Shown: piece by piece, positions 7,030 through 55,232 of the stretch
Numbering within the stretch: the stretch's first letter is position 1
Layout of the letters: every line of letters starts with the position of its first letter
NCBI GenBank assembly: GCA_003554865.1
Contig: PWHJ01000088.1
Span: forward strand, 1-64,000
DNA: 64,000 bases
DNA from: Bacteroidota bacterium
Lineage (GTDB): Bacteria > Bacteroidota > Bacteroidia > Bacteroidales > PUMT01
Direction of reading: 5' to 3'
Program-made: the position numbers and the translations under genes
The notes under the pieces: generated by a model
The model's database searches: none
Told to the model about the DNA's origin: nothing
What the model saw: the letters and a program-made list of their open reading frames with translations, nothing else

Positions 7030-7204
7030 TTAACATGCTGCAGCTGCTCCGGTTAGCCCTCCGGAAATTCCACCTACAATAAGACCTGCTTTAGTACCCA
7101 ATCAGAGGAACTACAGATCCTGCAGCTGCGCCGGATAATGCACCTAATTGCTTTTATAAACTTCATCAAATTTTGCCTGCCAAAGTCTGATGGGGTCATT
7201 CCAG
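7030..7204 (-). pseudogene. remnant of a small glycine-zipper peptide gene
   Basis: Reading the minus strand across two frame changes gives IWNDPIRLWQAKFDEVYKSN, then LGALSGAAAGSVVPLIG, then TKAGLIVGGISGGLTGAAAAC and a stop at 7030. The small-residue G-x-x-x-G pattern is like glycine-zipper peptides such as class II bacteriocins or pore formers. No single frame is open across the region, so it is decayed or mis-sequenced. The upstream part overlaps a degenerate copy of the dispersed repeat, so the first segment may not be native coding sequence. Confidence 0.35.
7163..7200 (-). repeat. degenerate copy of the MNPHQPLADKI dispersed repeat
   Basis: On the minus strand this reads AATGACCCCATCAGACTTTG followed by GCAGGCAAAATTTGATGA. 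Compared with the intact copies at 29391, 42259 and 55194 it has two single-base deletions and a few substitutions. Allowing for these, it would encode MNPHQTLAGKI. Confidence 0.6.
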
Positions 7205-11540: not shown

Positions 11541-11598
11541 ATAATCTGTTTATATTTAATTGAGTATTCCCCCGTCATACTTAAGCATACAACAATTA

Positions 11599-11690
11599 GA
11601 TGAACAAACACGTGGGGGAATGCAGTAAGAAATGTATTAATTGACATTCTATAATAACTTGTTGAATATTAGTTTAATTAACCATATTTG
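11599..11690 (+). repeat. tail-only copy of the dispersed repeat
   Basis: From ATGAACAAACACGTGGGG onward this segment aligns with the second halves of the repeat copies at 42296-42392 and 55101-55195. Shared blocks include ATTGACAT, TATAATAACTT, TTTAATTAAC and the end TTTGTACG. It contains TTG (11662-11664), 18 bases, then CATATTTG (11683-11690), close to a Bacteroidetes promoter but pointing against cbiO. The first half of the repeat is missing. Confidence 0.7.
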
Positions 11691-11715
11691 TACGTATAAA
11701 AATATAAAATATATT

Positions 11716-14614: not shown

Positions 14615-14657
14615 TTTGTAAATTGAGGGATTATTATAAAAATGAACCCCCATCATA

Positions 14658-16025
14658 ATGATAACTATTCCACTACTTGAGGCTTGCGTTGCAGTTGGCG
14701 GACGATCCAACAAACCGGTCTCACCCCTTGATTATGTAATTAAAGTAACCCAGAATTCCAGGGAAGTTCAGTCCGGTACCCTCTTTGTTGCTCTCAGGGG
14801 AAACAATGCAGACGGGCATTCATTTGTTGCTGAGGCTGAAAAACTGGGGGCAGTTGCAGCGGTGGTTGAATACGAAGTAAGTAATGTTGAAATGCCCCAG
14901 TTTGTTGTCCCTTCAACAGTTGAGGCCCTCGGAGATATGGCCCGGATATGGAGGGGAAGGCTCAGTATTCCCGTTATTGCAGTAACAGGAAGCGTGGGCA
15001 AGACCAGCACAAAGGAGTTGATAGCACATACTCTTTATGGCACATTTAACACACATAAAAGCCGCAAAAATTTTAATAATCAGCTTGGTGTACCAATAGA
15101 GCTGATGAGGCTTGACAGGGAGCATGAATGCTCGGTTGTTGAGTTCGGAATGCGTGATTTGAACCAGATAAATTACCTTTCAAGGATTGCAAGGCCCGCA
15201 TTTGCAATAATTACAAATGTGGGGGTATCACATATTAATGTGCTTAAAACAAGAGAGAATATTGCAAGAGCGAAGGCTGAGATATTTGAGGGTGTTGATT
15301 CTGGAGGGGTTGCTATATTGAATCGGGATGATGATTTTTTTGAGTTTGTTAGCAGGTATTCCAGCTGCAGGGTTATCACCTTCGGGGAAAATAGGAAGGC
15401 AGATATAAAGATAAGTGATATTCATCTCAGCAAGGAAGCAAACCCCATATTCAGGCTCAACGGCCGGGAGGTAAACATGTCTAGTTGTGTCGGGAAGCAC
15501 CATGCATACAATGCCGCTATAGCTTATGCAGTTGCAACCGAGATGGGAGTGGACAGGGAAAGGATATTTGAAAGATTTTCAACCTTTGTTACTCCCGAAA
15601 GAAGAGGTGTTTTTTCGTATGCCAAAAACGGTGCTTTGTTGCTTGACAGCACCTACAGTGCAGCGCCCGACTCTATCAAAGCTTCCCTGTACACCCTGGC
15701 CGAGCTTTCCGGAAGAGGAAAGCGCACTGTTGCTGTAATAGGAGATATGCTTGAGCTGGGATCCCACAGCGAAGAGGCGCACAGACATATTGGGAAGTTT
15801 GTCTCGGACCTTGGAGGGATCGGCTTGCTTGTTACGGTCGGAAAGTATGCTGAGTTTATAGGCAGGGAGTCGGGTATAAAAGAGTGGCAACATTTTGAAA
15901 GTTCCGCTCCGGCTGCAAAATACCTTCTGGAAGCTGTAAAGGGAGATGAGATTGTCCTTTTGCAGGGGTCAAACAATGTTTCGCTTGATCTGGTTGTAAA
16001 TGCACTTGAGAGCGGGAGCTTATAG
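14658..16025 (+). CDS. murF: UDP-N-acetylmuramoyl-tripeptide--D-alanyl-D-alanine ligase
   Basis: MurF adds D-Ala-D-Ala to the UDP-MurNAc-tripeptide in the cytoplasm, the last soluble step of peptidoglycan precursor synthesis. The 455-residue protein has the N-terminal Mur domain (DYVIKVTQNSREVQSGTLFVAL, GNNADGHSFV), the ATP loop AVTGSVGKTSTKELI, the following RKNFNNQLGVPIELMRL typical of MurF, GKHHAYNAAIAYAVA, and the C-terminal domain with LLDSTYSAAPDSIKASL and AVIGDMLELG. It is a lone gene outside any dcw cluster. A second ATG, in another frame at 14642, opens a 12-residue reading frame that overlaps the murF start. Confidence 0.96.
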   Translation: MITIPLLEACVAVGGRSNKPVSPLDYVIKVTQNSREVQSGTLFVALRGNNADGHSFVAEAEKLGAVAAVVEYEVSNVEMPQFVVPSTVEALGDMARIWRGRLSIPVIAVTGSVGKTSTKELIAHTLYGTFNTHKSRKNFNNQLGVPIELMRLDREHECSVVEFGMRDLNQINYLSRIARPAFAIITNVGVSHINVLKTRENIARAKAEIFEGVDSGGVAILNRDDDFFEFVSRYSSCRVITFGENRKADIKISDIHLSKEANPIFRLNGREVNMSSCVGKHHAYNAAIAYAVATEMGVDRERIFERFSTFVTPERRGVFSYAKNGALLLDSTYSAAPDSIKASLYTLAELSGRGKRTVAVIGDMLELGSHSEEAHRHIGKFVSDLGGIGLLVTVGKYAEFIGRESGIKEWQHFESSAPAAKYLLEAVKGDEIVLLQGSNNVSLDLVVNALESGSL

Positions 16026-29390: not shown

Positions 29391-29436
29391 AATGAACCCC
29401 CATCAGCCTTTGGCAGACAAAATAATATTCGCATGA
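29391..29436 (+). repeat. dispersed repeat copy A with 14-codon ORF
   Basis: AATGAACCCCCATCAGCCTT, then TGGCAGACAAAATAA, is shared with the copies at 42259 and 55194. Starting at ATG 29392 it encodes MNPHQPLADKIIFA and stops at 29436. There is no Shine-Dalgarno sequence and the later half of the repeat is missing. The stretch from 29266 to 29390 otherwise shows no gene. Confidence 0.7.
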
Positions 29437-31523: not shown

Positions 31524-31653
31524 GTTGTATTTGGATTATGTCAGAAATGATAATTACAGTTTTTTTAATTTTTCAATACCTCATTCAAAATATATTATAA
31601 GTAAAACCATTATTTATACATATAATTTAATGATCAAGATACATTAAAACAGG

Positions 31654-31665
31654 TGATATAAATCA
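31654..31665. promoter_or_regulatory. Fnr-like site 1
   Basis: TGATATAAATCA with outer G and C (GTGAT-N4-ATCAC), a 14-bp near-palindrome of Crp/Fnr type. It lies 131 bases upstream of the Crp/Fnr ATG. Confidence 0.6.
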
Positions 31666-31759
31666 CTTTCCCTCCTTGTACTTCCAAATTAAATAGTTTT
31701 TAAAAGAAACATTCAACCTTTATACATTTATTTTAATAATTCTGATACATTAAAAAGGG

Positions 31760-31771
31760 TGATTTAAATCA
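31760..31771. promoter_or_regulatory. Fnr-like site 2
   Basis: TGATTTAAATCA is a perfect 12-bp palindrome of TGAT-N4-ATCA type, 106 bases from site 1 (start to start). Confidence 0.6.
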
Positions 31772-31863
31772 TCATTGGTGGCAATCAGGCTCAGTGAAAA
31801 ACTATTTCTGAAAAAATCCTTTCTTATACATTTAATTTAACTTTTCTGATACATATAAAAGGA

Positions 31864-31875
31864 TGATTCTAATCA
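31864..31875. promoter_or_regulatory. Fnr-like site 3
   Basis: TGATTCTAATCA, within GATGAT-N4-ATCATC, is 104 bases from site 2 and 95 bases before the ATG of the response-regulator gene at 31970. That distance allows an activator site upstream of its promoter. Confidence 0.6.
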
Positions 31876-40819: not shown

Positions 40820-41716
40820 ATGAACAAGCTAAGTGATGCCGAGCTGATTAATGAGCTTACAGCCCGCTTGAAAGCATACAGTAAGACACTGAAAGAGATG
40901 CAGGACCTTAACAATGAATTAAAGGTCGTCAACAAAAAACTTGAAGAATCCGAGGCATTGAAAAGCCACTTCATTTCCAATATTACAAATGAAATTGTAA
41001 ACCCTTTTGCCTCTATAATCGGATTATCAAAGAATATTCTCTCTGCTAAAAAAGAGGACTGGAAAAAAGTTATTTCAATGGTTTCATTGATTCATTCCGA
41101 AGCCTTCAACCTTGACTTCCAGTTCAAGAACATTTTTGTTGCCGCAAAGCTTGAAGCCGGCGAGATCAGTCCGCATGTAATTAAAGTGGATATAAATTCA
41201 CTTATTGAAGGTGTGATTGAGTCTTTCAGGATTGAAGCCAAAAAGAAAAAGGTGGGTTTTAATTTTGACTTCAGTGTTACCCCTGGGGTTGAAAAAATCT
41301 ATTATTTCAATACCGACGCTGAAAAGCTCCAGCTGATCACCTCAAACCTGATAAGCAATGCGGTAAAATTCAGTTCACCCGGACAGGTTATTGAGGTACG
41401 TGTATCAATGAATGAAGATAAGCTTGTTATAAGGGTAAAGGATCATGGAACGGGAATCTCTCAGGAAAATCAAAAGATCATATTTGACAGGTTCAGGCGT
41501 CTTGATTCAGGGATTAATTCCCTTAACGGGGGTCATGGCCTTGGCCTGTCTGTTAACAAAGCCCTTCTGGATATGCTTGATGGTACCATAAATATTGAAA
41601 GTAAGCCGGGTGAGGGTGCGGAGTTTATAGTTTCTATTCCCGAACATTTTCTGGAAACCGAGGGTGTTTCACATGAGGGGAGCGAAACTTTTTTTGAAGA
41701 CGAGGAAATGTTTTAA
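40820..41716 (+). CDS. histidine-kinase-like protein lacking the phospho-histidine
   Basis: The 298-residue cytoplasmic protein has a coiled-coil start, a dimerisation region and an HATPase domain (LITSNLISNAVKFSS, VKDHGTGISQENQKIIFDRF, LNGGHGLGLSVNKAL). In the dimerisation helix the H-box reads FISNITNEIVNPFASI; Asn57 stands where His accepts phosphate in typical kinases (FISNMSHELRTPL). It can bind ATP but should not autophosphorylate on His, so it may act as a regulator or phosphatase-type subunit. It is ten bases before cheD. Confidence 0.82.
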   Translation: MNKLSDAELINELTARLKAYSKTLKEMQDLNNELKVVNKKLEESEALKSHFISNITNEIVNPFASIIGLSKNILSAKKEDWKKVISMVSLIHSEAFNLDFQFKNIFVAAKLEAGEISPHVIKVDINSLIEGVIESFRIEAKKKKVGFNFDFSVTPGVEKIYYFNTDAEKLQLITSNLISNAVKFSSPGQVIEVRVSMNEDKLVIRVKDHGTGISQENQKIIFDRFRRLDSGINSLNGGHGLGLSVNKALLDMLDGTINIESKPGEGAEFIVSIPEHFLETEGVSHEGSETFFEDEEMF

Positions 41717-41726
41717 TACCCCGGAT

Positions 41727-42197
41727 ATGGAAATAAATAACAGACATTTTCTTTATCCGGCCGCGATACATGTGAGCAGCTCTCCCTGTATAATCAATAC
41801 AATTCTTGGCTCATGCGTTGCAGTGTGTCTTTATGACCAGGTTAACAGATTTGGAGGGATGAATCATTTTATGCTTCCCCTGTGGAACGGGCAGGGGCTT
41901 GCATCACCAAAATACGGGAATATAGCCATAGAGAAGTTAACGGAAAAGATGATAAATCTCGGTTCAGGCAAAAATAATCTGATAGCAAAGGTTTTCGGGG
42001 GCGGGGATGTGATCGATACTCTTCACTCACAGCTTAATATCGGACACAGGAATGTTGATGTGGCAGTCCAGATCCTCGAGGAGCTCAGAATACCTGTTAA
42101 AAGTTCGAGTCTTGGAGGTAAGCTTGGCAGGAAAATATCATTCAATACTTATACCGGTGGTGTTTCACAGAGGTATATAAACAGGCAGTTAAGATAA
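41727..42197 (+). CDS. cheD: chemoreceptor glutamine deamidase CheD
   Basis: CheD deamidates receptor glutamines and interacts with CheY/CheC-type proteins. The 156-residue product has the catalytic Cys and Thr/Ser in NTILGSCVAVCLYD, the His in FGGMNHFMLP, and the conserved VFGGGDVI and NVDVAVQILEEL. I start at ATG 41727 (MEINNRHFLYPAAIH); an upstream ATG would overlap the preceding gene. CheD fits the non-flagellar chemosensory set, and no cheC is present. Confidence 0.93.
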   Translation: MEINNRHFLYPAAIHVSSSPCIINTILGSCVAVCLYDQVNRFGGMNHFMLPLWNGQGLASPKYGNIAIEKLTEKMINLGSGKNNLIAKVFGGGDVIDTLHSQLNIGHRNVDVAVQILEELRIPVKSSSLGGKLGRKISFNTYTGGVSQRYINRQLR

Positions 42198-42235: not shown

Positions 42236-42392
42236 ACTGGAGGTTATTTCAACCACATATGAATTCCCATCAGCCTTTGGCAGACAAAATAAGATGAACA
42301 AAATATGGAGGTCCATTCAGAAAAAAGAAATGTATTTAATTGGTGTACTGTAATAAATTGCTGAATATAAGCTTAATAAACCATGTTTGCGC
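42236..42392 (+). repeat. dispersed repeat copy B with promoter-like tail before cheB
   Basis: From GGAGGTTATTTC (42240) through ATG 42259, the core ORF and the tail ending CCATGTTTGCGCG, this copy parallels copy C at 55101-55245. The tail has TTG (42358-42360), 21 bases, and CATGTTTG (42382-42389), close to a Bacteroidetes promoter, 32 bases before cheB. Confidence 0.7.
42259..42297 (+). CDS. 12-codon ORF MNSHQPLADKIR of repeat copy B
   Basis: ATG AAT TCC ... ATA AGA TGA encodes MNSHQPLADKIR. It differs from the copy at 55194 by one synonymous and two amino-acid changes and keeps its stop. A GGAGGT lies 14 bases upstream. A second ATG overlaps the stop (ATGA) and opens MNKIWRSIQKKEMYLIGVL. 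Whether it is translated is unknown. Confidence 0.35.
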   Translation: MNSHQPLADKIR

Positions 42393-42421: not shown

Positions 42422-43501
42422 ATGAAGAACAGCATTAAAGTCCTTATTGTTGATGATTCCGCTGTTGTAAGGCGAACATTATCCGATATCGTAAATTCTG
42501 ATCCTGCACTGGAGGTGATCGGAACAGCATCTGACCCTTATGTGGCAGCAAAGAAGATGTTGTCGCAGGCACCGGATGTAATAACTCTTGATGTAGAGAT
42601 GCCTAAAATGGACGGCCTGACCTTTTTAAAGAAGATCATGTCTCTTCATCCGATCCCTGTTGTGATTATCTCCAGCCTTACGGCAGAAGGTACTGAAACC
42701 GGCTTAAAGGCCCTTGAATATGGCGCAGTTGAAATTATTACTAAACCGAAAATGGATACGAGGACTTTTATCGAAGAGTCCAGGATCCGTTTGTGTGATG
42801 CAATAAAAGCCGCCTCGCTTGTGCGCCTGAAACGAAAGAATATACCTGCCCCGGCTATAAATGTGCAGCCTAAACACAATGCTGATGTAATAATGCCGAG
42901 GAGTACCTCCCAAAGTATGATCAAAACAACAGAGAAGGTAATTGCCGTTGGTGCCTCAACCGGGGGAACAGAGGCACTTACGGTTTTCTTGCGGGCTTTT
43001 CCGCCTGACTCTCCGGGGATGGTCATAGTGCAGCACATGCCGGAACAGTTTACCAGATCATTTGCCCGCCGGTTGAATGAGCTGTGCTGTATGAACGTGA
43101 AGGAGGCCGAGAACAATGATACCGTTATCAGGGGCAGGGCGCTGATAGCCCCGGGTAACAGGCATACTATGCTGAAAAGGAGCGGTGCAAGATATTACGT
43201 GGAGGTAAAGGATGGCCCGCTTGTTAACCGGCACCGGCCCTCGGTCGATGTTCTGTTCAGGTCAACCGCCAGGTATGCCGGCAAAAATGCTGTAGGAATA
43301 ATAATGACGGGTATGGGTAGCGACGGTGCCAGCGGTCTTCTTGAAATGAGGGAGGCAGGAGCTTATACAATAGTACAGGATGAGAAAAGTTGTGTTGTTT
43401 TCGGAATGCCCAACGAAGCAATTAAGCTGAAGGCGGTTAAAGCCGTTCTGCCGCTGAATGATATTGCCGGCAAGGTGATTAAACTGACAAAGAATGATTG
43501 A
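42422..43501 (+). CDS. cheB: chemotaxis methylesterase CheB with receiver domain
   Basis: Two-domain CheB: receiver at 1-125 ([41 protein letters not shown]) and methylesterase at 165-355. The triad is present: Ser in [12 protein letters not shown], His in [13 protein letters not shown] and Asp in [26 protein letters not shown] is also conserved. It resets receptor methylation when phosphorylated by CheA. With the receiver-less copy at 18687 the locus has two CheB enzymes. Preceded by the repeat with its promoter-like tail. Confidence 0.95.
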
Positions 43502-45954: not shown

Positions 45955-48900
45955 ATGAATAAGCGATTATTTTTTATAATAATGCTTTCGTTTCTGGTGT
46001 CTGCTCCTTTATACGGTCAGTTTCAGCCATCTGTAACACCAGAGCCTGTAACCTGTTTCGGCGACACTGACGGAGTGATCCATGCTCAGGTTACCGGGGG
46101 CATTGCTCCTTATCGCTTCATATTATATGATGACATGTTTAATGAGCTGGACAGGTATGAGGGAGACAACTCTTCACACTCCTTTTATGAACTTGCCCCC
46201 GGCACCTATTATGTTATAATACGTGATGATGATAACAGTGAGCTTTTGTATGCAGTTGTTGGAGAGCCTGATGAATTGATAGTCGATGTTTTGCCTGAAC
46301 CGGCAGATATTTGTCCGGATACTGACAGGCAGTTGCACGGGCAATATTCCGGAGGTAACGGTGAACCTTATACTCATTTGTGGACTGGTAGCGGGGCGGA
46401 GTATCTTGATGATAATACAATTGAGGCACCGGTATTTAATTCCGGTGATATAGGGGTGCATGATCTTGTCTACCGTGTGGAAGACCATAGGGGGTGCTTT
46501 AAAGAAGAGAGTGTCAGCATTGAGGTTTTTGAAGATATAACTGCAGGATTTACACATGAAGATGTCACCTGTTTTAACGGTGACAACGGATCTGTTACCA
46601 TTATTAACGAAGAAGGGGGGTCTGGCAGTTACGAGTATATGGTGGAGGACAGTGACTGGCAGGAAACACCTGTTTTCGAAGGCCTGACTGCCGGAGAATA
46701 CGATATATGGATAAGGGATGCTTTGAATCCTGATGAATGTACTGTGCTTGTGGGCACAGCTGAGATCAGCCAGCCTGACCTTCTAACTGCAGATATTTCT
46801 CATACTGATGTAACATGCTATGGCGGTACCAACGGAGCTGTCTCGGTTGAATCCCCTGATGGAGGTTCCGGTTCTTACCAGTACCGTGTCAGTGGTTTTG
46901 ACTGGCAGGAGGAGGGTTTGTTCGAGGGGCTAACTGCGGGTGATTATGTAGTAGAGATCCGTGATGCCGGAGATACCGGTTGTGTTATTGAGCTTGACGG
47001 CTCATATACTGTTAGTGAGCCCGATCCTCTCACTGCAGATATTTCCCATACAAATGTAACATGTTATGGCGGTTCAGACGGGACTATCTCGGTTGAATCT
47101 CCTGATGGAGGTTCCGGTTCTTACCAGTACCGTGTAAGCGGTTTTGACTGGCAGGAGGAGGGTTTGTTTGAAGGTCTGATTGCGGGTGATTATGTAGTAG
47201 AGATCTGTGATGCCGGAGATACCGGTTGTGTTGTTGAGCTTGACGGGTCTTATGAAGTTCAGGAACCCTCTGAGCTGGCCGGAAGTATAGAGCATGAGGA
47301 TGTAACTTTATGTCATGGTTACTCTAACGGATGGATAGAAATAAGCTCCTCGGGAGGTTGGGCCGAAAATACAGGGGAGTACGAGTATTCAATAGACGGT
47401 GGGGAAAGTTGGTCGGCCGATAACCGTTTTGAGGACCTTCCTTCGGGATATTATAATGTGAAGGTAAGAGATGCCGGCTATACCGGTTGTTCACTGGTTA
47501 TTGACGATAATTACTTTATAGACCAGCCTGAAGAGATCACAGCCGATGTATACTGGGAGCCGGTTAGCTGTCACGGAGGTGATGACGGCCTCATACGGTT
47601 TGATAACACTGAAGGCGGTTCGGGTATGTATTATTATACTGTAATAGGTTATGAAACCTATGAGCAATCGAACAACGTTTTTGACAACCTGCCTGCCGGA
47701 ACTTATGATTTGCGGATAAGCGACCTTATTGATGAAGACTGTATTGTTATAATCGACCAGTTTTTCGAGCTGCCTGAAGCTGACGAGTTGAATGCTTCTG
47801 TATCGAAGAGCGATGTTACCGGTTGCCACGGGAATGATAACGGAGAAATAGTTGTTGACCAAATTGAGGGTGGTTCCGGTAATTACCAGTATTCAGCAGA
47901 TGATGGTGCTTCATGGCAGGAGGATAATAATTTTACCAACCTTACAGCCGGGGAATACCCTGTCTGGATAAGGGATGCTGATGTTCCCGGGTGTACCAAA
48001 TTCCTTGAAAATGTTGAAATAACAGAACCGGAAGAGCTTCAGGCCGGATTTGAAGTGAATGATGTGAGCTGTTTCGGGGGCTCTGACGCGAGTATATTAA
48101 TTACCGATCCTCAGGGCGGTTCGGGGAGTTATGAGTTCTCCGCAGACGGGTCTACATGGCAGGAAGAACAGGAGATCACTTCTCTTGAGGAAGGAGAATA
48201 TACTGTATTAATGAGAGACATGAATTTCCCGGTTTGTGAAATAGTGCTGGGTTCTGCAACTATTGACCAACCTGAGGAGATATCGGTTGACATCCCTGAA
48301 GTTTCCGGAAATAATTGCCACGGATCAAATGACGGTATTATCGAAGCAATTGCCAGCGGTGGCACACCCGGTTATATTTACTCTCTTTATGAAGGCGGGG
48401 AGCTAATAGCCACTTCTGAGCCGGAGCATCCTGAGCCTGCTGTTTTTGAAGATCTTTACGCGGCCGACAATTACCGGATAGTTGTAACCGACAGCAGGGG
48501 GTGTGATCCGGCAGAGGTTTCAGGAATTGTTGTTGCTGAGCCTGATGAATTGGTGATATCCTCTGTTGATGTTGAACATATTGATTGTTACGGCTCCGAG
48601 ACAGGAAAAATTACAATCAGCGCATCAGGTGGAACAGGTAATATAAAGTATTCTGTTAACGGAGTTGATTTTTACGATAACGGCGGGGTGTTTGAAAATC
48701 TACCGGCCGGTGTTTATGATATTAAAGTTAAGGATGAGAATGATTGTATAACTGAGCATGGTAATGTCGAGGTAACTCAGCCCGGCAGGCTGTCAGCAGA
48801 TATAACGGTGTCTGATATTACGTGTCACGGAGCTGAAAACGGGCGTATAGAGATATCCAATACCGGCGGTGGCAGCACGCCCGGAAACTATGAATATTCT

Positions 48901-51900
48901 ATTGACGGGTCAAACTGGATCGATGACCCGCTTTTTGAAAACCTCACTTTCGGAACATACAATGTATTTATTCGTGATGCAGATGTTCCCGGTTGTTTTG
49001 TAGAGCTTGATGAGAGTCCGGTTGAGGTTGCCGAGCCGGAAGTACTGGAAATGGAAGTCAATGTAACTCATGTTGATTGCCATGGAAATAGCTCAGGAAT
49101 GATCGAGATTTTTGCCGAAGGGGGTAATGAAAATTATGAATACAGGCTTGATGGGGGTGAATGGCAGGAAACGCCGGTTTTTGAGGATCTTCCCTCCGGG
49201 GAGTACCTGGTGGAAACCCGTGACAAGATGGATTGCTCGGTGAGTGAAATGGTTGAAATAACAGAACCGGATGATTTAAATATTTTTAATATCGGAGTTA
49301 ACAATGAATCCTGCTTTGAGGCAGAAGACGGAAGAGTGACAATTACTCCGGAAGGAGGTACTCCTGCTTATTTATATTCTATTGATGGAGGTGAAACATT
49401 TCAGGAAGATAGTGTGTTTACCGATCTGGCTCCCGGTTTTTATGATGTCAGAGTAATGGATTATAAAGGTTGCGTGGTGGATGCCGATATTCCGGCACGA
49501 ATAAGGGCTGCAAATGAAATAGTATTTGACAAAATAGATGTTGACCATATTTCGTGTTATGGCGCCGGCGACGGGGAGTTGGATGTTGAAGCATCGGGAG
49601 GTGAACCATCCCTGCAATATAGTATTGATAATGAAAGCTGGCAGGATAACGGGAATTTTTCAGACCTCGACGGTGATATTTATACTTTATGGGTTAGAGA
49701 TATTCGTGACTGTACTGTTAGCGAAGAATTGCAGGTTGATGAACCCGACTCTGTGACCATTGACATTGCAGTTGATGACATTGACTGTTTCGGTGCCGGC
49801 AACGGTGTTGTTTATGCTTCCGCTGAAGGTGGATCAGGCGATTATACCTATTCTTTGTTCGAGGCAGAAACAGATATGGTTGCAGCTCCAGAGCAGATAT
49901 CTTCCGGTGAGGTGGAGTTTGGCGAACTTGAGCCCGGAGATTACTATGTCATTGCAGTCGATGAGAACGGTTGTGCTTCTGGTGAATCTGCTATAGTAAC
50001 TGTAGGTGAACCCGAGGAACTGATCATTTCCCTGCTTGAAGCTGAAGATATCTCATGTTACGGGGCAGATGACGGTACAATAACAATAACGGCTGAAGGT
50101 GGAACAGGGGAGTTAATATATTCTGCCGACGGGGGTGAAAGTTTTAACAGTAACGGCGGAGAATTTACCGGCCTGCCTGCCGGAACCTATAATATTGTAG
50201 TAACAGATGAAAAGGGTTGCGAAAAAGAGTACCCTGACCCTGTTGAAATAATTGAGCCCGCGGAAATTGAGCTCATATCTTCAGATATTTCGCCCGCCGA
50301 ATGCCATGGTTCCCAGACCGGCTCAATAAGGGTTACTGCCGACGGTGGTACCGGAGAGCTGGAGTATTCACTTGATAATGACAGCTACCAGGTGGACGGT
50401 GATTTTGAAAATATAAGTGGTGGTGATTATACTTTATATGTTAGGGATGAAAATGAATGCATAAAACTGTTTGATCTTTCTGTTCCCCAGCCCGATGAAC
50501 TTGTCCTCTCGAGCGAGGTTCTGAATACCGAATGTGGCGGAATTGAGTCGGATCCCAAGATAAGGGCAAGTGCCACTGGCGGAACCGCTCCCTATGTGAT
50601 AACCCTTTATCTTGAAGGTGATCAGCAGGCTTCTTTTGAAAATATAGATGAAGATGAGACTGTATATTTTGAAGCGCTCAGTGAGGAGGAAACCGGCTAC
50701 GAGGTTGTTGTGCATGATGATGCCGGTTGTCCGCCGGTAAGCAGTGGAATGCTTAGCACCGAAATACCGGATCAGCTTGAGGCCGGATTACTTTCAGTAT
50801 TGCATCTGGAATGCCACGGGGTAAATGAAGGTGGATTAGAAGCATCGATAACCGGCGGCACAACTCCCTATTATGTTCAACTCTATATGGATGGGGTTCC
50901 TGCCGGAGATCCGGTGGAATCAGACGGAACTGTTATTTTTGAAGAACTTGCTGCCGGCACTTACAGTATATCGGTAACAGATGTTAATGGCTGCGGGCCT
51001 TTCGAAATTCAAGATATTGAGGTCGACGAACCTGACCAGCTGCTGTTTGGTGATTTCAACCTTGATCACAACACATGTATCGGTGACAGTGCAGGAATAA
51101 TTGAAACAGAAGCCTTTGGCGGGACGCAATCCTATGTATTCACCCTCCTGGATAATGAAAATGAGCCGGTTGAGGGGTATGAGCCGCTTGTAAGTGACAG
51201 GGGCGCTGTTTTTGAAGATCTTCCCGCCGGGACATACAGGATAAGACTTACAGATGAAAATTCATGCGGGCCGGTTATTTCATCCGACAAAGAGATTGAG
51301 GATCCTGAACCTCTTGATGTGCAGGTTGATAAAACTGATATTTTGTGTTACGGACAGGAAAATGGCTCTATTACCATGCTGGTTGAGGAAGGAGGCGGTA
51401 CACTGGAATATTCGATCGACGGAGGCTTTACATTCCATGACAATGAGGGTGTATTTGAGAACCTTGGTCAGGGTTCTTACGAAATAGTAGTGCTTGATTC
51501 AGACGGCTGTACCCAAAAAGCCGGCACCTTTGAAATTACAGAGCCGCAACAGCTTGATTTTGTCAATGTTGAAACTGAGGATATTATTACCGGTTCGGGA
51601 GATGATAACGGTGTAGTTACAGTTGAAGTAGCCGGCGGGGTTGAGCCATACACATACAGCATTGATGATGGCACCACCTGGCAGGATGAAAATGTGTTTG
51701 ACACTTTGTCTGCCGGAGAACACAATATTATTGTGAGAGATGACAATGAATGTACCGGGGAAACAACGGCAGAGATCCGGGAGGTGACAGGAATAGATGC
51801 TTCTGTGTCAGCTTCTGATCCGACCTGCAACGGTTATAACAACGGTGCTATTAATGTTGAAGGAGAGCTTGGTACGGAGCCTTATGAGTACTCAATTGAC

Positions 51901-53013
51901 GGCGGCATCGAGTTCAGTTCCTCGGGTAATTTCGATGAACTTAAGGCGGGCACATATATGGTTGTGGTAAAAGATGATGAAGGGCTTGAATATCACGAAA
52001 GTGTCACACTGAATGATCCGGCTTCTATTGAGGCAGCTGCTGTTATAAATAATGCTTCGTGCAGCAACTTCAGTCTGGATGGCGATGATGGCGGAATTGA
52101 GCTGGAAGTTACAGGCGGATCGGGCGGGTACTCATATCTTTGGTCAAACGATGAAGTTACAAGAGATCTGAAAGATATACCTGCCGGAGATTACAGTGTT
52201 GTTATTACAGATGAAAACGAGTGTGAGGAATCATTCAGCTTTACAGTTGACTATGATAATCTGTTAGAGGCTACCCTGCCTGAGGTGATTACGATTTGTT
52301 CAGGAGAAGATGTGCAGCTTGAGCCCTCGGTTAATTCATCATCTTCCCCGGAAATATATTCATGGCTTGCATCGGATGGCCCTGACCCCGATTCGGTAAT
52401 GTCGCCGGTTGTTGCTCCTTCAGCTCCAACAAATTATTCTTTTAGGGTTGCAGATTCCAACAGGTGCTATGATGATACTGAGGTGTATGTTGATATGCAT
52501 CCCCTGCAGGGTTTATCTATAGGTAATGATACGGTGGTTTACGAGGGCAGTACTATTACGCTTGAGGCTTCAGGCGGGGAGTTTGTTGATTATAAATGGA
52601 AACCCTCAGCCGGACTTTCTGAAATCGAAGGGCATGTAGCAACAGCTATTGTGAACGAAGAAATAAGGTATTACCTGTTTGCAGAAACTGCGGAAGGATG
52701 CATTGAATCTGATTCAATACTGATTGGTGTGGCATCACCGATTGAGCCTGTTTCTGGTTTTGCACCAAACGGTGACGGAAGGAACGACTATTTTGAAATA
52801 CTCAATGCACAGGATTACCCTGATATTGTTGTAGAGGTTTACAATCGTGCCGGACAGAGGGTATTCTATTCGGAAGGTTACAGTGATGATAAAAGATGGG
52901 ATGGAACCTATAATGGCAGGGATTTGCCTATGGGAACCTATTATTATGTTATAACGCTTAATGATAAGTTTGGTACCAGACCGGTTACCGGACCGGTTAC
53001 AATAGTGAGATAG
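45955..53013 (+). CDS. giant SprB-repeat surface adhesin with type IX (type B) sorting domain
   Basis: The 2352-residue protein has a signal peptide (KRLFFIIMLSFLVSAPLYG) and about two dozen copies of an 80-90-residue SprB-type repeat, each with V-x-C-(Y/F/H)-G-x-x-(D/N)-G, G-G-(S/T) and Y-S-I/A-D-G. After a non-repeat domain (about 2090-2260) the C-terminus is the gliding-motility-associated type: APNGDGRNDYFEI, VEVYNRAGQRVFYSEGY and WDGTYNGRDLPMGTYYYVI. Such proteins are exported by the type IX system and presented at the surface. Two adjacent repeats are nearly identical at DNA level (period 246 bp). The PorP/SprF-like gene starts two bases after it. No gldK-N genes are in the window. Confidence 0.95.
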   Translation: MNKRLFFIIMLSFLVSAPLYGQFQPSVTPEPVTCFGDTDGVIHAQVTGGIAPYRFILYDDMFNELDRYEGDNSSHSFYELAPGTYYVIIRDDDNSELLYAVVGEPDELIVDVLPEPADICPDTDRQLHGQYSGGNGEPYTHLWTGSGAEYLDDNTIEAPVFNSGDIGVHDLVYRVEDHRGCFKEESVSIEVFEDITAGFTHEDVTCFNGDNGSVTIINEEGGSGSYEYMVEDSDWQETPVFEGLTAGEYDIWIRDALNPDECTVLVGTAEISQPDLLTADISHTDVTCYGGTNGAVSVESPDGGSGSYQYRVSGFDWQEEGLFEGLTAGDYVVEIRDAGDTGCVIELDGSYTVSEPDPLTADISHTNVTCYGGSDGTISVESPDGGSGSYQYRVSGFDWQEEGLFEGLIAGDYVVEICDAGDTGCVVELDGSYEVQEPSELAGSIEHEDVTLCHGYSNGWIEISSSGGWAENTGEYEYSIDGGESWSADNRFEDLPSGYYNVKVRDAGYTGCSLVIDDNYFIDQPEEITADVYWEPVSCHGGDDGLIRFDNTEGGSGMYYYTVIGYETYEQSNNVFDNLPAGTYDLRISDLIDEDCIVIIDQFFELPEADELNASVSKSDVTGCHGNDNGEIVVDQIEGGSGNYQYSADDGASWQEDNNFTNLTAGEYPVWIRDADVPGCTKFLENVEITEPEELQAGFEVNDVSCFGGSDASILITDPQGGSGSYEFSADGSTWQEEQEITSLEEGEYTVLMRDMNFPVCEIVLGSATIDQPEEISVDIPEVSGNNCHGSNDGIIEAIASGGTPGYIYSLYEGGELIATSEPEHPEPAVFEDLYAADNYRIVVTDSRGCDPAEVSGIVVAEPDELVISSVDVEHIDCYGSETGKITISASGGTGNIKYSVNGVDFYDNGGVFENLPAGVYDIKVKDENDCITEHGNVEVTQPGRLSADITVSDITCHGAENGRIEISNTGGGSTPGNYEYSIDGSNWIDDPLFENLTFGTYNVFIRDADVPGCFVELDESPVEVAEPEVLEMEVNVTHVDCHGNSSGMIEIFAEGGNENYEYRLDGGEWQETPVFEDLPSGEYLVETRDKMDCSVSEMVEITEPDDLNIFNIGVNNESCFEAEDGRVTITPEGGTPAYLYSIDGGETFQEDSVFTDLAPGFYDVRVMDYKGCVVDADIPARIRAANEIVFDKIDVDHISCYGAGDGELDVEASGGEPSLQYSIDNESWQDNGNFSDLDGDIYTLWVRDIRDCTVSEELQVDEPDSVTIDIAVDDIDCFGAGNGVVYASAEGGSGDYTYSLFEAETDMVAAPEQISSGEVEFGELEPGDYYVIAVDENGCASGESAIVTVGEPEELIISLLEAEDISCYGADDGTITITAEGGTGELIYSADGGESFNSNGGEFTGLPAGTYNIVVTDEKGCEKEYPDPVEIIEPAEIELISSDISPAECHGSQTGSIRVTADGGTGELEYSLDNDSYQVDGDFENISGGDYTLYVRDENECIKLFDLSVPQPDELVLSSEVLNTECGGIESDPKIRASATGGTAPYVITLYLEGDQQASFENIDEDETVYFEALSEEETGYEVVVHDDAGCPPVSSGMLSTEIPDQLEAGLLSVLHLECHGVNEGGLEASITGGTTPYYVQLYMDGVPAGDPVESDGTVIFEELAAGTYSISVTDVNGCGPFEIQDIEVDEPDQLLFGDFNLDHNTCIGDSAGIIETEAFGGTQSYVFTLLDNENEPVEGYEPLVSDRGAVFEDLPAGTYRIRLTDENSCGPVISSDKEIEDPEPLDVQVDKTDILCYGQENGSITMLVEEGGGTLEYSIDGGFTFHDNEGVFENLGQGSYEIVVLDSDGCTQKAGTFEITEPQQLDFVNVETEDIITGSGDDNGVVTVEVAGGVEPYTYSIDDGTTWQDENVFDTLSAGEHNIIVRDDNECTGETTAEIREVTGIDASVSASDPTCNGYNNGAINVEGELGTEPYEYSIDGGIEFSSSGNFDELKAGTYMVVVKDDEGLEYHESVTLNDPASIEAAAVINNASCSNFSLDGDDGGIELEVTGGSGGYSYLWSNDEVTRDLKDIPAGDYSVVITDENECEESFSFTVDYDNLLEATLPEVITICSGEDVQLEPSVNSSSSPEIYSWLASDGPDPDSVMSPVVAPSAPTNYSFRVADSNRCYDDTEVYVDMHPLQGLSIGNDTVVYEGSTITLEASGGEFVDYKWKPSAGLSEIEGHVATAIVNEEIRYYLFAETAEGCIESDSILIGVASPIEPVSGFAPNGDGRNDYFEILNAQDYPDIVVEVYNRAGQRVFYSEGYSDDKRWDGTYNGRDLPMGTYYYVITLNDKFGTRPVTGPVTIVR
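46789..47280 (+). repeat. recent tandem duplication of a 246-bp adhesin repeat unit
   Basis: The unit starting GCAGATATTT at 46789 recurs at 47035 with few differences (for example CTCATACTGATG against CCCATACAAATG, CCGTG against CTGTG). Other repeats of the gene are much more diverged, so this 82-codon duplication is the newest. Confidence 0.85.
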
Positions 53014-54053: not shown

Positions 54054-55097
54054 TCATTTAAACCTGTCAATTACCTTAACTCCACTCCCCTCGAACTTGT
54101 TCATATTAACAAGCTCATTCAGCGACTCCTCCAGGCTTATGGTTTTTCCAATCAGTTTTTCCGGGGCAAGCCTGCCTGAGCTTACCATAGCAAGTACCGA
54201 TGGGTATCTGTGTGCTTGCATTCCATGGCTTCCCAATATTTCCAGCTCACCGGCAATGACCTGGTCCATTGGCACTGCCGGGCAACTGTCGCTTCCTTTC
54301 ATTAGACCGATTTGAACATGCTTGCCGCGTTTTCTGAGGCTTGCTATTGAGTTGAAACATGTTTCGGAGCTGCCAAGTGCATCGATTGATAAATGCACTC
54401 CGCCACCGGTTATATCTTTTATATTTTCTGTAACGTTTTGTACATTTTTCGCATTGATGGTAGCTGAAGCTCCTACTGATCTGGCAAATTCAAGCTTGTC
54501 ATCGCCTGTGTCAACTGCAACGACATTTGCTCCTGCCGAATCTGCTATCATAATGGCTGACAATCCGACTCCTCCGCAGCCATGAACGGCCACCCATTGC
54601 CCGGGAAGTACACGCCCCTGATCCACTACAGCCCTGAAAGATGTAATGAACCGGCATCCAAGGCTTGCTGCTGTAACAAAGTTTATTTCACCGGGCAATT
54701 TGACAAGGTTGGTGTCTGCATACTGAATGGCAACATATTCAGCAAATGATCCCCAGTGTGTGAAACCCGGCTGGAATTGATGATCGCAAACCTGATGGTT
54801 GCCGCAAGAGCATTCAGGGCAGGTGCCGCAGCCACAAACAAATGGCAATGTTACCCTGTCTCCCTCTTTCCAATGAGTTACATCTTTTCCCTTTGCCACT
54901 ACAAATCCTGCAAGTTCGTGTCCGGGAACATGGGGCGGGGTAATATCCGGATCATGTCCCATCCATCCGTGCCAGTCGCTTCGGCAAAGACCGGTAGCTT
55001 TAACCTCTATCACTACACCGTTTGGTGCAGGGTAAGGGTCTGGCAAATCTTCTATGGCGAGGGGTTTCCCAAAGTCATTGTATATTGCTGCTTTCAT
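54054..55097 (-). CDS. zinc-dependent alcohol dehydrogenase
   Basis: The 347-residue product is a medium-chain dehydrogenase/reductase. Catalytic zinc ligands are in [12 protein letters not shown] and [10 protein letters not shown], the four-Cys structural zinc site is [17 protein letters not shown], and the NAD(P)-binding loop is [14 protein letters not shown], followed by the acidic [14 protein letters not shown], favouring NAD. Start: ATG 55097 ([10 protein letters not shown]); an extension to 55109 is TTG-based. The substrate is unknown; the family covers alcohols and polyols. Its upstream region is the dispersed-repeat copy C, which may supply its promoter. Confidence 0.92.
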
Positions 55098-55100
55098 GCG

Positions 55101-55232
55101 TACAAACAAAGTTAATTAAACTAATTTTCAATAAGTTATTATAGTATGTCAATTAAGTTCATCTCTTTTGGTCGCATGGCCCCCCATGTTTGTTCATTTT
55201 ATTTTGTCTGCCAAAGGCTGATGGGGGTTCAT
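55101..55232 (-). repeat. dispersed repeat copy C with promoter-like tail
   Basis: Minus strand: AGGAGGT (55239-55245), six bases, then the ORF at 55232-55194, then ATGAACAAACATGGGG and the tail TTGACATACTATAATAACTT ... TTTAATTAACTTTG, ending at TTTGTACGC immediately before the dehydrogenase ATG. TTG (55129-55131), 18 bases, TTTGTTTG (55103-55110), or the exact TAACTTTG at 55107-55114, may act as promoter. Confidence 0.75.
55194..55232 (-). CDS. 12-codon ORF MNPHQPLADKIK of repeat copy C
   Basis: ATG AAC CCC ... ATA AAA TGA reads MNPHQPLADKIK, preceded at six bases by a clear AGGAGGT. Its stop overlaps a second ATG (AATGA) that opens MNKHGGPCDQKR. The strong ribosome site and conserved frame suggest translation, but peptide evidence is needed. 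Confidence 0.4.
   Translation of the reverse strand: MNPHQPLADKIK

Follow-up and report, generated by a model that had tools for sequence, protein, structure and literature searches.

Several described families of short repeats offer points of comparison for the element considered here. IS200/IS605 transposons select their cleavage sites through base complementarity with guide sequences located 5′ of each palindrome (PMC8266576). REP and BIME sequences are short hairpin repeats present in tens of copies, for which the RAYT protein (TnpA-REP) is believed to provide mobility in trans; the site of cleavage may be set by a tag word 5′ of their hairpin (PMC8266576, PMC3733652). Integron attC sites are folded sites into which group II introns have been found to insert, in saline habitats (PMC7923331). 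Among the Bacteroidales, Porphyromonas gingivalis carries the BrickBuilt MITE, with inverted-repeat ends and tandem units of 23 nt; it is located 49-591 nt away from genes, and promoter activity has been measured for it (PMC4596501).

The present analysis concerns a repeat found in a stretch of 64,000 nucleotides (hereafter the window) from a Bacteroidota genome assembly of 243 contigs, 3.2 Mb and 96% completeness (G000). The copies of this repeat are probably short non-autonomous mobile elements, which would join at the word ATGAA and finish in an equivalent start codon. An insertion at a start codon would normally be expected to break or silence the gene. An element that ends in its own target word could settle there harmlessly, possibly altering expression.

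Copies and distribution of the repeat

The first-pass annotation had described three copies sharing a core, each with a short ATG-initiated reading frame, and all of this is borne out by the sequence. The 27-base core CCCATCAGCCTTTGGCAGACAAAATAA occurs exactly at 29399-29425 (+), 42266-42292 (+) and 55199-55225 (-), in copies A, B and C, respectively, with none expected from shuffled windows. The GGAGGT reported upstream of copies B and C is present, and the degenerate core reported around 7163-7200 was recovered at 7170-7192 (-) with two mismatches. The tail-only copy proposed at 11599-11690 has to be redrawn, as a full element with another inner sequence but the same plan (Table 1). Instead of being a long copy cut short, copy A is one of several near-identical short elements ending in AATAATATTCGCATGAA. 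Copy B is bordered by an ORF at 41664-42197 on one side and by a response-regulator/CheB-like ORF starting at 42422 on the other. The terminal CGCATGAA of copy C provides the start codon of a zinc alcohol-dehydrogenase-like ORF (55097-54054). Its left ATGAA is read as the former start codon of this gene, and the GGAGGT that precedes it would be the ribosome-binding site of that former start. A scan for other ATGAACCCCCATS sites yielded further copies and one footprint, which is possibly the remnant of a deleted copy; no autonomous copy was among the results.

Table 1. Positions of the repeat copies and of associated features (window coordinates unless a contig or locus is named)
Feature	Position	Strand	Basis
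Copy A, left junction word ATGAA (putative target)	29392..29396	+	sequence, junction consensus
Copy A, short form CCCCCATCAG...TTCGCATGAA	29397..29437	+	sequence; short form also seen elsewhere
Copy B, left junction word ATGAA (putative target)	42259..42263	+	sequence
Copy B, long form, ends GCGCGAATAAA	42264..42399	+	sequence
Copy C, left junction word ATGAA, GGAGGT before	55228..55232	-	sequence; orthologues without element
Copy C, long form	55093..55227	-	sequence
Fourth element, left end CCCCCGTCATACTTAAGCATAC, different left hairpin region	11569..11700	+	side-by-side reading of copies
Degenerate left-end fragment	7163..7200	-	core search, 2 mismatches
Footprint ATGAACCCCCATCATA, 16 bases	14642..14657	+	directly before ORF start at 14658
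P0001 gene	L238:1003-2118 (G000:C128); L239:6539-7654 (G001:C160)		shared gene block beside element copy
Intron-like sequence, left-end breaks	G000 C18:76006-76107, C226:35381-35482, C36:1-76, C167:1-76		four contig ends
Intron-like sequence, right-end breaks	G000 C10 (L143), C102 (L139)		two contig ends

Other repetitive stretches of the window were also recorded. Three 53-base direct repeats, spaced by 104-106 bases, occupy positions 31613-31875, a stretch without a long ORF, and a 2352-aa ORF at 45955-53013 contains internal repeats of about 250 bases.

The genome-wide count proposed in the first-pass annotation gave 69 copies in G000 with at most three mismatches to a 23-base core, the reversed pattern used as a control giving none. 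With at most two mismatches, the core was found in all 16 genomes of the same family and in none of the 25 genomes from other families of the order (41 genomes searched). The element is so far restricted to one Bacteroidales family. The names of family-member MAGs (CSSed, T3Sed), read together with papers on soda lakes, point to an origin in Kulunda soda-lake sediments. Neither plasmid and phage collections nor an exact pattern scan of viral contigs returned a match to the repeat.

Architecture of the element

Side-by-side alignment of all copies reveals sharp element ends. On the left, ATGAA is the most frequent flanking word, ATAAA, TTGAA and others being rarer. The element then starts with CCCCCATCAGCCTTTGGCAGACAAAAT, that is, CCCCCAT, a small hairpin and ACAAAAT. 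In the short form, of about 41 bp, this start runs straight to TTCGCATGAA. In the long form, of about 135 bp, it is followed by AAGATGAACAAACATGGGGGTCCATNCG, an AT-rich tail and CGNATGAA. The right end of the element is either CGNATGAA or CGNATAAA. The two ends, CCCCCATCAG and ...TACGNATGAA, do not form an inverted-repeat pair. Head-to-tail tandem copies also occur, and their joint is ATGAA. The flank words can differ within one copy, as with ATAAA on the left and ATGAA on the right at locus L023 and the reverse at L035.

Some copies are longer because of an additional hairpin module, TTGACCTGCGGTCGATTTCACAT...ATGTGAAATT, located between GGGGGT and CAT. At L238:2273-2404 in G000 and L239:6335-6384 in the related genome G001, the same element is found in two versions that differ by the presence of this extra module (TTTGACCTTTGGTCGATTTCAAATG...), as if it were gained or lost as a unit. 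The word before the left hairpin is CCCCCAT or ACCCGCAT, and some copies have CATCAGCTAAAGCTCAC or CATGAGCTAAAGCTCAT in the hairpin region. Taken with the different hairpin region of the fourth window element, these variants indicate that the hairpin sequence may vary while the plan remains constant. A separate sequence, TTAATTAGGGTTTACTGATTTTCTCATGCCGGC, follows element-related sequence both at the end of contig C5 (L003) and at the start of contig C62 (L032) of G000; it probably corresponds to another multicopy insertion left unassembled.

Long forms fold into two helices, both of which show compensatory changes. In helix A, CCCCCAT faces ATGGGGG; in helix B, the internal CATNCG faces the terminal CGNATG, which holds the start codon. 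Single-sequence folding produces both helices in several copies, though not in all. The first variable base of helix B is Watson-Crick paired in 19 of 24 own copies (7.7 after shuffling) and in 8 of 10 copies from relatives (3.3 after shuffling). In A2, a small alignment spanning several genomes from which the long tail loop was omitted by hand, 93% of the cells of both helices are paired, against 29-36% when the partner strand is slid. This alignment contains 14 double changes, against 4.8 in shuffles, and none of 500 shuffles reached as high a count; the shuffles ignore relatedness, and the values should not be taken as formal probabilities. Three pairs, C-G, G-C and U-A, are found at the fifth stem position of helix A, and three, C-G, G-C and A-U, at the variable position of helix B. 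Covariation is similar but weaker in an alignment of 26 own copies, from which RNAalifold alone recovers helix A, and this only in part. The left ATGAA and the right CGNATGAA are both complementary to the internal word TTC(C)ATNCG, which can therefore pair with only one of them at a time. In the mRNA, the new start codon could be buried in helix B, and gene expression may change as a likely side effect of the insertion.

Probable insertion at start codons

The terminal ATG is intact in 22 copies, and in 13 of them it begins an ORF of at least 138 codons. By comparison, about 24% of the permissible ATGAA sites, defined as those at gene starts or between genes (about 99 kb of G000), are gene starts; the excess corresponds to P=5e-4 with a crude calling of ORFs. 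Judged by sequence resemblance, the genes behind the copies include common genes of housekeeping type, namely dapB-, miaA-, recX-, NAD-synthetase- and relA/spoT-like ORFs. Some copies precede no gene.

The upstream regions of 20 element-preceded genes were compared with those of their orthologues in five relatives, which gave 55 stretches of at most 300 bases. Any element-like match was found in only 5 of the 55. Most orthologues have their start codon at the same place but lack the element; as the compared genomes are MAGs of different species, its absence at a single locus may also reflect a loss. For example, the orthologues of the copy C dehydrogenase in G001 and G002, 85-88% identical, have no element and share its start codon, and dapB-like and PepSY-like genes likewise have matched start codons without it. 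In G001, a different element stands exactly at the start codon of a NAD-synthetase-like gene, as an independent insertion. A single insertion is common to two genomes in place (L014/L199), in a block that also encodes a 98%-identical recombinase protein. The idea of a mobile repeat, one of those put forward in the first-pass annotation, is therefore upheld by about 70 dispersed copies, their absence from the same genes in relatives and their sharp ends at ATGAA. These data fit copies that were moved by transposition and survived at start codons. Their placement there may be either targeted or merely tolerated.

The short reading frame and the tail

The same annotation had also seen the repeat as a possible family of tiny proteins, MNxHQPLADKI, or as a leader-peptide control element. 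Roughly half of the own copies do have this frame open. In the peptide MNPHQPLADKI, the start codon and the beginning of the codon after it nevertheless belong to the junction word ATGAA, outside the element, and 35 of 66 copies lack ATGAA at their left junction. Frameshifts arise from length changes in the C run. Core substitutions number 33, 27 and 20 at the first, second and third codon positions, so that there is no excess of synonymous change and third positions change least. Nor does the frame persist in relatives, where the left end is often ATGAA followed directly by ACCCGCATCAG, which gives a different frame, and where the hairpin loop varies between TTT, TTC and TTA, with an in-frame stop among the variants. 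A protein family is almost certainly the wrong reading, and protein-level constraint as the reason for conservation of the repeat is refuted by the codon-position and relative-frame data. Since the small-protein reading is not supported, the resemblance of the peptide to RarA-type N-termini is put down to chance. MNPHQPLADKI would be an accidental by-product of an old ATGAA read into element sequence. It would offer a case of an apparently conserved short ORF produced purely by the insertion site of an element.

A conserved cis-regulatory leader, in which a leader peptide and a structured RNA would control the downstream genes, could account for the GGAGGT placed before the short frame in copies B and C, for the conserved structure and for the many copies that precede genes in the same orientation. 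It is extremely unlikely as an explanation of the repeat, given that these genes are unrelated and their orthologues lack the element, that the peptide is not conserved, that some copies have no gene behind them and that no Rfam family matches the repeat up to E=1. A leader-peptide effect may arise as a side effect at those genes which keep their old start codon and ribosome-binding site upstream of the element.

The promoter-like tail keeps a layout, with TTG, then TTTG 22-23 bases further on, and about 5 bases from there to the ATG. The Bacteroidetes promoter consensus is TTTG/TAnnTTTG (PMC6847099). A canonical promoter would combine this −7 box with a −33 element about 19 bases away. The canonical TAnnTTTG box is present in 5 of 27 full copies, none of which has a TTG 16-22 bases upstream of the box, and a canonical promoter as a conserved feature is not supported on this count. 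The tail could possibly act as a weak promoter giving an almost leaderless mRNA, but most mRNAs of Flavobacterium johnsoniae carry leaders.

Search for a mobilising enzyme

No enzyme able to mobilise the element was found, and neither excision nor a circular form was seen. The Y1 transposase domain (Y1_Tnp, PF01797) was absent from six genomes, all carriers of the element (G000, G001, G002, G003, G005 and G006), and Y2_Tnp/IS91 was absent from G000. Y1 genes of other family members adjoin different hairpins. In G009, a Y1 transposase gene (L230:1489-1881) lies between hairpin repeats of its own, CCCACGGTT...AACCGTGGG, which bear no relation to the element. These assemblies collapse repeats, and a transposase gene present in several copies could thus be absent from them.

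Protein P0001, an IntI/XerA-like tyrosine recombinase, is encoded in both G000 and G001 at a distance of 155 bp from an element copy. It is 98% identical between these two species-level genomes, and the block may result either from a recent transfer or from mixed binning. P0001 was not found in many other carriers, for example G002, G005, G010 and G011, which counts against it as the mobiliser.

An autonomous partner with the same ends was also considered. Four contig ends that break inside the left end of the repeat, and two in the right end, carry a multicopy sequence that resembles a group II intron and not a transposase, and this candidate was dropped. The sequence lies inside the repeat at an exact site, between CATGGG and GGTCCAT, and a similar one follows other left-end hairpins in relatives (L117, L118). 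Its 3′ end aligns with the full model of RF00029 (positions 1-77); the score, 30.2 bits (E 0.011), falls short of the gathering threshold of 40.

Possible mechanisms

Considering these properties, the following scheme may be envisaged. Insertion would take place through a joining event at ATGAA, for which TTC(C)ATNCG inside the element would probably serve as a guide that aligns both joining points in folded DNA, and a putative recombinase would act in trans. Where this ATGAA contains a start codon, the gene would receive an equivalent one from the element end, and such insertions would survive for this reason. Some left flanks are not ATGAA, which counts against this scheme. If the guide does select the site, it would represent a further base-pairing-directed way of moving DNA. 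It may even be imagined that the element belongs to a class in which an unrecognised mobiliser selects start codons through pairing of the guide with ATGAA, and the element restores the start codon at its own end, within a stem that could open through the alternative pairing, thereby placing a portable translation switch on the captured gene; such a class is rather unlikely.

A narrower form of the preferred explanation names the enzyme class. The repeat would then derive from IS200/IS605 or REP/RAYT sequences; an HUH (Y1) transposase would move it in folded, single-stranded form, and the cleavage sites would be selected by guide words lying 5′ of the hairpins. This is a tentative possibility, suggested by the lack of terminal inverted repeats, the subterminal hairpins, the insertion 3′ of a fixed short word and the internal word complementary to the right end. 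Single-strand transposition is strand-specific. Pairs of copies on shared contigs are in the same orientation in 17 cases and in opposite orientations in 18, counted irrespective of the replication direction of the contigs, and the absence of Y1 from the six carriers and the unrelated hairpins beside other Y1 genes also weigh against this proposal. The CATNCG-CGNATG covariation is equally compatible with a guide word and with a stem of folded RNA or DNA. In another proposal, the repeat would be a recombination site of integron type, of which a tyrosine recombinase would recognise the folded helix B end and join it at ATGAA, as IntI does with attC. The pairing and covariation of the outer boxes, the tandem copies joined at the end box, the recombinase gene close to a copy in G000 and G001, and the invasion of the repeats by group II intron-like sequences, as attC sites are invaded by such introns, all point in this direction. 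Such an integron-type site is distinctly unlikely all the same, because GTTRRRY/RYYYAAC boxes are absent, all aligned copies having CATNCG and CGNATGAA, no cassette genes accompany the repeat, and P0001 is missing from many carriers. An ordinary MITE moved by a DDE transposase, for which ATGAA would happen to be a 5-bp target duplication, would explain that this word stands on both sides of most copies. This origin is very unlikely for an element devoid of terminal inverted repeats, in which the left and right words often differ within one copy. Moreover, the right word covaries with the internal box and hence belongs to the element.

Comparison with known systems

Like the BrickBuilt MITE, the present element is a lineage-specific intergenic repeat of Bacteroidales found in tens of copies; it differs in that its end is the start codon itself and in that its promoter is only putative. 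With attC sites and CALINs, it shares a folded site, paired and covarying outer boxes, and the insertion of what look like group II introns. However, its boxes are CATNCG/CGNATG and not RYYYAAC/GTTRRRY, it is not associated with cassettes, and the integrase is not common to all carriers.

The likeness to IS200/IS605 lies in the absence of terminal inverted repeats, the subterminal hairpins, the fixed 5′ target word and the internal word complementary to an end, whereas the lack of Y1 in six carriers, the absence of strand preference and the distance of about 75 bases between the guide and the end set the element apart. As in the case of REP and BIME sequences, it is a short hairpin-bearing repeat in tens of copies, but it has neither a GTAG nor a CGTC tag, and no RAYT was found in the genome. 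REP and BIME sequences are located mainly downstream of genes, whereas the element is located at gene starts and carries ATGAA as its own end word. Because of these findings on the enzyme, the tag and the strand preference, it is not filed as a member of either group. A search of the literature on elements targeting start codons found nothing close. Small non-autonomous repeats are a known kind, of which a variant that replaces the start codon seems to be new within the literature and collections searched, and the element works most like REP or IS200/IS605-derived repeats.
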